Source: Microcaldota archaeon (GTDB lineage: Archaea > Micrarchaeota > Micrarchaeia > Norongarragalinales > UBA8480). From it: DNA of 7,484 bases. The translations under genes and the position numbers were made by a program. Location: the NCBI GenBank assembly GCA_023247085.1, contig JAHFHC010000029.1:1-7484 (forward strand). The letters run 5' to 3'. A model generated the notes under the pieces. It saw nothing but the letters and a program-made list of their open reading frames with translations, had not been told where the DNA came from and ran no database searches. Positions within the stretch are counted from its first letter, which is position 1, and every line of letters begins with the position of its first letter. This document shows, in pieces, positions 2,915-6,642 of the stretch.

Positions 2915-3208
2915 TTATTTCTCCCCCTTACTTTTTTCTATGAGCTGTTTTAAATCCTGCAGTGCATTTTCAAAAGAGCTAAATGCATAAGGCTTTTTTT
3001 GTTTCAAAAAATGTAAGTGGTGGCCTTCTCTTTTTTTATTGTCTATTCTTATTTTATCCATCCATTTGTTATTAACTAATTCGCGGTAGTTAATCGAATA
3101 TTTTACGCCTTCCGGATAATTTTTGTCAATTGGTACTTTCCAAAGGTTTAAATCTATTCGTTCAGTTTCTGACTCGATAATTGTTCTTTTTATGATTAAT
3201 TCAACCAA
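2915..3208 (-). CDS. tumE: TumE-like (DUF6516) toxin of a type II toxin-antitoxin pair
   Basis: This small protein of 97 residues is read as a TumE/DUF6516 toxin. The middle and end match the family layout: a YSINYRELVNNKW strand pair (37-49), an R-x-D-N motif (Arg54, Asp56, Asn57), a histidine cluster HHLH (63-66), then a C-terminal helix FENALQDLKQLIE (79-91). The family name comes from a toxin-antitoxin pair on a Pseudomonas plasmid; the molecular target is not evident from the sequence. The only usable start is TTG at 3206-3208, because an in-frame TAG stands at 3215-3217 and the first ATG is codon 50. A TATA-like element around 3242-3248 would place transcription start roughly ten bases before this TTG, so the leader is very short. 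The gene is A+T-rich: two stretches counted gave 28 and 33 percent G+C, against 47 percent for one in the transketolase gene. Confidence 0.78.
   Translation of the reverse strand: MVELIIKRTIIESETERIDLNLWKVPIDKNYPEGVKYSINYRELVNNKWMDKIRIDNKKREGHHLHFLKQKKPYAFSSFENALQDLKQLIEKSKGEK
2921..2927 (-). promoter_or_regulatory. Ribosome binding site of the antitoxin gene
   Basis: GGGGGAG on the minus strand lies seven bases before the antitoxin ATG and inside the last codons of the toxin gene. It is one of the two strongest Shine-Dalgarno sequences in the window. It fits independent, efficient translation of the antitoxin, whereas the toxin begins with TTG and has no visible site. That imbalance is what a toxin-first module needs. 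Confidence 0.7.
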
Positions 3209-3212
3209 TAAA

Positions 3213-3261
3213 AACTACCAATATGTGTAGCGCTAGTACACATATAAGCTTTTTGGTAGTT
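3213..3261. promoter_or_regulatory. Two-tier inverted repeat, probable operator/promoter of the toxin-antitoxin operon
   Basis: Two perfect inverted repeats are nested here. The outer arms are AACTACCAA (3213-3221) and TTGGTAGTT (3253-3261). The inner arms are ATATGTGTA (3221-3229) and TACACATAT (3237-3245), separated by seven bases that include the palindrome TAGCGCTA (3228-3235). Seven unpaired bases (3246-3252) make the right side longer than the left. The minus-strand TATA-like CTTATAT falls in the right half, so a protein bound to the repeat would block transcription of the toxin gene. The right outer arm overlaps the TAA of the PEP-utiliser gene, and a T-run follows on the minus strand at 3210-3214, so the same element could also fold in RNA and help end that transcript. 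Autoregulation by the antitoxin is inferred. Confidence 0.65.
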
Positions 3262-4639
3262 ACAAGATTTTCACTTCGCCAGTGTCTCCATTTACTTCCA
3301 CCATGTCCCCGTCGTTTAAAACATTAGTAGCATTTTTTGTTCCTACAACACAAGGCTTTTTCATTTCGCGTGCAATAATTGCCGCGTGTGAAGTTAGCCC
3401 ACCTTCGTCTGTTATAATTCCGCTTGCCATGTTCATTGCATTAATGTAGTTTGGGCTAGTAGTAATTGCGACAAGGATTTCTCCTTTTTGTACTCGGTGC
3501 AAATGAGCTGCAACTTTTATTTTTCTAACTTTTCCGCGCGTAATTCCTTTGCTTGCCGCTATTCCTTTTAAGAGACTTGGGCCAATAGTTGCTTCAGTTG
3601 CTTTTATTAACATTGAAGCAGCTTTAGCGTCTGCTTCTTTTCCAGTTATGCAAGTCGCTTTGCCCGCTTTTTTATAAAGTAAATAGTTGCCGTTAATTCT
3701 ATTTGCTACTTGTTCAGTGTTTACTTTTCCAGTTTTTAATCCATCTAATATTTCTTCTCGCAACAAGCTGTAAGTTTGAGAATATGCTATTCCTAATTCA
3801 CGCGAAATCTCTTGGTAAAGTGTTCTAGCATAGTAAGTGCCTTTACGTCGGTATTCGTCGCGTAAATCCTTGACATAGAAATACATCTGCGATAAATCTA
3901 CAAAGTCCGATTCTGCTTGTGTTAGTTTTAGGGTTTTTGTAATATCAAGATGTTTGTGAATTTTTTCAATGGGCATGGTGGTGTCGATAATTTGTTTTGC
4001 TTCTTGGATTGTCAAAGGATTGTATTTCAAGTCAAGACACGGAAACCATTCGTATTTACTCCGGAATTCTTCTAATGCAGATTCACTGTAGTTCCGTTTC
4101 AGTTCAACTGCGTCTATTCCGATTTGAACCGTTGCCGCTACTTTACTTGGCCTAAGGCAACGGGATAACACCTGCGCAAGTGAACTGCTTGGCTTCACCT
4201 CGCCGTACTTCCGTTCAATGAACTCGCCAAGTTTATCTGCAAATAAATCGTTTAGCTCAAAAGTGAGCCAAAGTTCGGAGGTGTATTTAGTCCAGGTGCT
4301 TATGTATTCTTCGTATAAGCTAGTTAAGTTTTCACTTTTAGCTTTTTTATGCACTTTTTTTGCGGTTTCAACATATTTTTTTCCAAACGTTATAAATTCA
4401 TCAAGAAATCTACGTGAGTTGTGTTCTTCTAAGAAGTATTCAAGTAGTATTTTTTGATGTTTTGCAAATTCATTAGTTTCTGCGTAGGCTCCGCCGTTTC
4501 GTTTATCGTACTTATAAACAACTAAATCTTCAACTGGATAACGCGCATATTTTGAAGATTCTAAACTAATCATGTGCAGTACATTTTCCCAGTATTGGAC
4601 TGTGTACTCTCGCTCGAATAATTTCTTCCAAGTATTCAT
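3260..4639 (-). CDS. PEP-utilising enzyme-like protein: helical domain plus phosphohistidine swivel domain
   Basis: The last 100 residues (about 358-459) are a PEP-utiliser mobile domain. They include KGITRGKVRKI, a hydrophobic strand before TTSPNYINAM, and the active-site signature GGLTSHAAIIAREMKKPCVVG, where His418 is the phosphorylatable histidine. The preceding 350 residues are charged and mostly helical, including a KYEWFPCLDLKYNP segment (195-208) and a REEILDGLKTGKV segment (294-306), similar to the linker region of PEP-synthase-like and rifampin-phosphotransferase-like proteins. There is no ATP-grasp domain in front and no PEP/pyruvate-binding barrel behind. It therefore cannot be a complete PEP synthase or pyruvate phosphate dikinase and would need a partner to phosphorylate its histidine; the substrate is unknown. 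I start at the ATG at 4637-4639 (459 residues); a TTG six codons upstream is possible. Neither start has a clear ribosome binding site. The gene follows lysA by 102 bases. Confidence 0.85.
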   Translation of the reverse strand: MNTWKKLFEREYTVQYWENVLHMISLESSKYARYPVEDLVVYKYDKRNGGAYAETNEFAKHQKILLEYFLEEHNSRRFLDEFITFGKKYVETAKKVHKKAKSENLTSLYEEYISTWTKYTSELWLTFELNDLFADKLGEFIERKYGEVKPSSSLAQVLSRCLRPSKVAATVQIGIDAVELKRNYSESALEEFRSKYEWFPCLDLKYNPLTIQEAKQIIDTTMPIEKIHKHLDITKTLKLTQAESDFVDLSQMYFYVKDLRDEYRRKGTYYARTLYQEISRELGIAYSQTYSLLREEILDGLKTGKVNTEQVANRINGNYLLYKKAGKATCITGKEADAKAASMLIKATEATIGPSLLKGIAASKGITRGKVRKIKVAAHLHRVQKGEILVAITTSPNYINAMNMASGIITDEGGLTSHAAIIAREMKKPCVVGTKNATNVLNDGDMVEVNGDTGEVKIL

Positions 4640-4689
4640 AATAGTAGTAAAAAACAACAGAAAGAAAAAGCTTGCCCTAAATGAATTTT

Positions 4690-6165: not shown

Positions 6166-6642
6166 TTATTTTTCTAATGCGGCTATTTTAGCTATTCTGC
6201 GGGCGTGTCTTTCTTGGCCACTAAATTTAGTTGTTAAAAACGTGTTAACTATATTGACTGCGGTTTGCACTGGCATTGGTTTTAACAATTTGCGTGCACT
6301 TGGTTCTAGGAATTGCCCGCCAGATAAGCATAGTATATTTGCGTCATCGTGTTGACGGGTTAGGCATGCCACTTCTTCATTGAATGCAACTATGGCTCTG
6401 ATGGATTTTATTTTATTTGCCGCAATGCACATTCCTTCAGCACTACCGCACACCAAAATTGCACGCGCGCTTTCTTTTGCAACTCGACTCGCTACTTTTT
6501 TCGCCACATCCGGATAATCGTCTCCTTCAGTGTAATCTGGCGTTAAGTCAATAAGTGAATATTTGTGGGATAAATTATGCAATAAGTGCTGCTTTAATGC
6601 ATAACCTGCATGGTCGGCGCCAATGTAGATAGCTGAATTCAT
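6166..6642 (-). CDS. rpiB: Ribose-5-phosphate isomerase B
   Basis: This RpiB/LacAB-family enzyme interconverts ribose 5-phosphate and ribulose 5-phosphate and feeds the epimerase and transketolase encoded further along. The 158 residues fit the family. Motifs are IGADHAG (7-13), GDDYPDVA (40-47), the active-site loop CGSAEGMCIAANK (65-77) with the catalytic-position Cys65, RQHDDANILCLSGG (96-109) with His98, and the C-terminal phosphate-binding ERHARRIAKIAALE (144-157). The loop usually reads CG(T/S)GxGMSIAANK; here Ala68-Glu69 replace Gly and a hydrophobic residue, which may alter the oxyanion region or specificity. It starts at an ATG with no ribosome binding site but with a TATA box about 35 bases upstream, so its transcript probably begins almost at the start codon. 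LacA/LacB-type isomerases are the alternative; the neighbouring rpe and tkt favour RpiB. Confidence 0.92.
   Translation of the reverse strand: MNSAIYIGADHAGYALKQHLLHNLSHKYSLIDLTPDYTEGDDYPDVAKKVASRVAKESARAILVCGSAEGMCIAANKIKSIRAIVAFNEEVACLTRQHDDANILCLSGGQFLEPSARKLLKPMPVQTAVNIVNTFLTTKFSGQERHARRIAKIAALEK

Follow-up and report, generated by a model that had tools for sequence, protein, structure and literature searches.

The window analysed here, a stretch of 7,484 nucleotides from a Microcaldota archaeon with a genome of 0.89 Mb, contains a short gap between two genes in which an earlier note, made from the sequence alone, had described a two-tier inverted repeat. All genes around this element lie on the minus strand, with the gene of a PEP-utiliser protein upstream of it and the toxin gene tumE and the antitoxin gene tumA downstream (Table 1). 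tumA starts one base downstream of tumE in the same direction, and its product carries a DNA-binding domain of the HVO_A0114/MarR winged-helix type, with weaker Pfam matches to MarR and HTH_11 besides HVO_A0114. Since the toxin exceeds the curated PF20126 cut-off and has an adjacent co-directional DNA-binding partner, the two genes were assigned to the TumE-TumA family. Read along the minus strand, the gap consists of the PEP-utiliser stop codon (3260-3262), AACTACCAA, AAAGCTT, ATATGTGTA, CTAGCGC, TACACATAT, TTGGTAGTT, TTTA and the TTG start codon of tumE.

Table 1. Features of the tumE-tumA locus (positions in the window)
Feature	Position	Strand	Evidence
tumA, winged-helix antitoxin and presumed repressor, 132 aa	2515..2913	-	PF25212 HVO_A0114, E 1.6e-19
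tumE, toxin, 97 aa, TTG start at 3208	2915..3208	-	PF20126 TumE, E 3.3e-7, 30.6 bits vs cut-off 23.4
Outer right arm TTGGTAGTT, shortly before the tumE start codon; unlikely to have a function of its own	3213..3221	-	Perfect partner, not conserved
25-bp palindrome ATATGTGTA-CTAGCGC-TACACATAT, proposed TumA operator, reaching from within the TATA box (its 3' part) almost to the predicted transcription start	3221..3245	-	Perfect 9/9 arms and recurrence in related promoters
Archaeal core promoter, BRE-like AAAGC then TATA box TTATAT	3242..3252	-	Enriched hexamers and aligned TumE promoters
Outer left arm AACTACCAA, overlapping the PEP-utiliser stop codon; probably no separate function	3253..3261	-	Perfect partner, not conserved
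Upstream gene whose product has a PEP-utiliser mobile domain at its C terminus	3260..4657	-	PF00391, E 6.3e-28

Elsewhere in the window, transketolase is predicted to be encoded in two adjacent genes (3-851 and 864-1760), as is usual in archaea, and is adjoined by a ribulose-phosphate 3-epimerase (1770-2498), and an RpiB-like open reading frame lies at 6166-6642; of these, the epimerase was checked with Pfam. A search of the window against Rfam gave zero matches. Each of four relatives (G001, G002, G012 and G018) has 10-18 matches to the PEP-utiliser mobile domain, and proteins of this kind are abundant in these small archaeal genomes. We found no clear orthologue of the upstream gene in the relatives, the best candidates being 31-36% identical over long stretches, and because of these many paralogues a corresponding site free of the toxin-antitoxin pair cannot be read.

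We then searched the gap for repeats, and both nine-base perfect inverted repeats described in the earlier note are present. The inner arms (3221-3229 and 3237-3245) are complementary in 9/9 positions with a spacer of 7 nt, and TAGCGCTA (3228-3235) straddles the edge of the loop. The outer arms, also complementary in 9/9 positions, lie 31 nt apart and have base 3221 in common with the inner tier; the left one overlaps the stop codon of the PEP-utiliser gene, as had been proposed. When the 90 upstream bases are shuffled with their dinucleotide composition kept, an inner palindrome of this quality arises with p of about 0.003-0.006. Given the inner tier, the outer arms reach p 0.010-0.030, varying with the length of flank that is shuffled; taken alone, this is weak evidence. 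Across the whole window there are 6 perfect inverted repeats (arms of at least 9, spacers of up to 40) against 1.7 ± 1.6 in shuffled sequence. Our statistics for the organism's own genome come from a 113-kb sample of its 0.89 Mb; in this sample there are two 25-bp palindromes with 9/9 outer pairs, namely the inner tier and one A/T-rich run. The element has no further copies in its own genome, where the pattern is present once.

The inner tier lies at the tumE promoter and overlaps its TATA box, in agreement with the earlier note. In most aligned TumE promoters an A/G-rich stretch with AAAGC or a similar sequence is followed by TTA(A)ATAT at the same column and then by the palindrome, and in the 113-kb sample AAAAGC and TTTAAA are two of the hexamers most strongly enriched ahead of genes. 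The “seven-base asymmetry” of the element, AAAGCTT (3246-3252), is the BRE together with the 5' end of the TATA box. Archaeal TATA boxes are located about 26-27 bases upstream of the transcription start (PMC4158304), which would place the start of tumE near 3217-3219. With such a start, the inner palindrome would span almost the whole stretch from the TATA box to the transcription start, and the tumE mRNA would be without the hairpin. The inner tier is therefore an inverted repeat overlapping the promoter of the operon, as is expected of an autoregulatory operator.

We further analyzed the conservation of the element among relatives. When 301 genomes of the phylum were searched with both proteins, TumE and TumA, eight pairs of this class, here referred to as class A, came up; in 7/8 of their promoters the best 25-bp palindrome of the upstream region has the same position relative to the TATA box. 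These seven palindromes start at the ATAT of the TATA box and have 8-10/10 complementary outer pairs. In the nearest relative (L007), whose toxin is 44% identical, the exact 9-mer ATATGTGTA is found at -39 from the start codon, compared with -37 here, and after the same N7 spacing it is followed by a second arm, TACCCCTAT, that is complementary in 7/9 positions, with two mismatches. The exact 9-mer occurs in 0.04% of shuffled L007 upstream regions (p 0.0004). The earlier note had suggested looking for this arm upstream of other TumE-TumA pairs, and in the nearest relative it is present. Five other loci (L010, L011, L012, L013 and L015) have in common ATATATGGTAT-N3-ATACCATATAT or variants of it. 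The eighth pair, L042, has no such palindrome in its upstream region. Combined by Fisher's method, the shuffle p-values of the eight promoters give about 1e-8, a value that is too strong since five loci are mutually homologous. The pair is missing from the nearest relatives of the genus, and the conservation is accordingly one between distant pairs only. Searches of plasmid and viral collections for relatives of TumE or TumA gave none that were useful.

The 301 genomes contain six exact matches to the pattern TATRTGKW-N7-WMCAYATA, of which three are upstream of TumE-TumA pairs and the other three are in or near unrelated open reading frames. The reversed control of the pattern matched 11 places against these 6, and the pattern was moreover derived from the sites themselves; it is therefore the placement of the matches, not the pattern alone, that counts as evidence. 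Pairs with DUF7718-type toxins (one member tested) form a second class, which has no such palindrome and carries GTTAA-like repeats instead. Four loci with these toxins and HVO_A0114 partners (L016, L017, L018 and L021) show TTAAC...AGGTTAA-like repeats directly ahead of the start codon; these may be another operator or serve in ribosome binding.

Because the palindrome lies on the promoter and recurs at the same place in most related pairs, it is probably the site bound by the antitoxin, and we consider it very likely that the inner 25-bp palindrome is a TumA operator serving autorepression of tumE-tumA. We infer that TumA is the binder, that its binding represses transcription, and likewise the role of TumE. 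A TumA dimer, either free or bound by TumE, would occupy the two ATATGTGTA half-sites, which extend from the TATA box almost as far as the transcription start. TumA bound there would exclude TBP/TFB or RNA polymerase from the promoter; the operon would thus repress itself, with relief when TumA falls. In archaea, repressors are known to block RNA polymerase from palindromic sites that coincide with the BRE/TATA region or closely follow it, as in the cases of TrmB, Tgr, TrmBL1, MDR1 and Phr (PMC4158304).

A small, informal comparison of half-sites with predicted TumA recognition helices suggests that the two change together. The helix DRRNV pairs with the half-site GTGTA, and D(F/M/I)K(T/S) pairs with ATGGTA or similar half-sites, while the TumA of L042, whose promoter is without the palindrome, has a diverged helix, KDFRAI. 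L042 (G110:C52) is the second of two TumE-TumA pairs carried by one genome (G110), and the first, L013 (G110:C26), has the 25-bp palindrome. This contrast is as expected if the two copies were insulated from each other.

The palindrome could in principle belong to a regulator other than TumA, such as a global winged-helix repressor, for promoters of this genome could contain sites of other factors of that kind. However, the pattern is present once in the organism's own genome, the matches in promoters of gene pairs across the phylum are found only at TumE-TumA, and the half-site appears to shift along with the TumA helix; we regard this explanation as unlikely. The earlier note had also suggested an RNA hairpin as the end of the upstream transcript. 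On this reading the whole element, together with a T-run, would terminate the transcript of the PEP-utiliser gene. Read-through RNA can indeed form a stem of 8 + 9 bp with an 8-nt bulge, followed by UUUU. However, its fold of -17.2 is modestly better than the -12.2 ± 2.9 of shuffled sequences (z -1.7), 12/200 of which fold equally well, and a hairpin plus T-run occurs after 1/115 genes and before 1/115 in the 113-kb sample, where T5 is slightly commoner after genes than before them (39 vs 31). The fold is thus moderately stable, a stem with a T-run is not enriched at gene ends in the sample, and the proposed hairpin finds no backing there. Most of the stem, in addition, is accounted for by a palindrome that is conserved elsewhere at the DNA level, and termination in archaea depends on U-tracts rather than on hairpins. 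We therefore consider a terminator very unlikely.

The outer arms raise the question of a two-tier operator, in which TumA or TumA-TumE would also bind the AACTACCAA arms with a different affinity. The perfect complementarity of these arms and their position flanking the inner tier (see the p-values above) agree with such an arrangement, and the AbiEi-family antitoxin Rv2827c binds two sets of repeats with different affinity (PMC7319586). On the other hand, the outer arm differs in sequence from the inner half-site and does not occur in any of the 15 other TumE-type promoters, that of the nearest relative included; the best sites in these promoters have at least 2 mismatches and usually 3-5, as expected by chance. 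Nor are the flanking arms in other class-A promoters longer than chance, the nearest exception being L011 with 7 bp (p 0.053). The centres of the two arms are also 40 bp apart, on either side of the promoter, and this spacing would be wide for one winged-helix dimer. The proposal of two arms for binding by antitoxin alone and by the toxin-antitoxin complex depends on this outer arm and is likewise unsupported, and a two-tier operator is very unlikely. As for the broader notion that TumA of this class is an autorepressor with a half-site code co-evolved with its helix, and here has a two-tier operator reading free antitoxin and complex separately, we consider it very improbable. On the sequence evidence the inner tier is well supported, unlike the outer one; the operator proposed in the earlier note for one or both tiers is supported by conservation for the inner tier (7/8 pairs) and not for the outer (0/15). 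The evidence favours neither a second operator nor a terminator in the outer tier, whose arms are most likely a coincidence in a short AT-rich gap.

The preferred reading, a TumA operator at the inner palindrome, can be compared with known systems. The pair resembles the TumE-TumA (DUF6516) superfamily in having a toxin that passes the Pfam TumE cut-off and a two-gene operon with a DNA-binding partner. The founding paper predicted that the partner binds DNA and makes no mention of an operator (PMC10584680). Those pairs that have been tested come from Gammaproteobacteria and have RelB-like partners, whereas the pair described here is archaeal, with the toxin first and a winged-helix HVO_A0114 partner, and its toxicity is predicted. 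In the archaeal TrmB, Tgr/TrmBL1, MDR1 and Phr systems a palindrome likewise overlaps or lies just downstream of the TATA box, a winged-helix protein is the regulator, and recruitment of RNA polymerase is expected to be blocked (PMC4158304); the present element differs in sequence and family, and its putative regulator is an antitoxin. Promoters of AbiEi-family toxin-antitoxin systems (S. agalactiae AbiEi and M. tuberculosis Rv2827c) also carry inverted repeats as antitoxin sites in the operon's own promoter, as is proposed here for the candidate site. They are, however, bacterial promoters with an unrelated protein, and Rv2827c uses two sets of repeats (PMC7319586), while one conserved set is supported here.

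The TumE-TumA toxin family was reportedly described only in 2023. Our literature search, which covered few subscription papers, found no published operator for it, and within the literature searched the palindrome is the first operator candidate derived from sequence for such a pair in archaea. An autoregulatory toxin-antitoxin operator is an ordinary kind of control, here in a recently described family. With this candidate, autoregulation of TumE-TumA becomes directly testable, and the 25-bp signature can be used for annotating TumE-TumA pairs in DPANN archaea.
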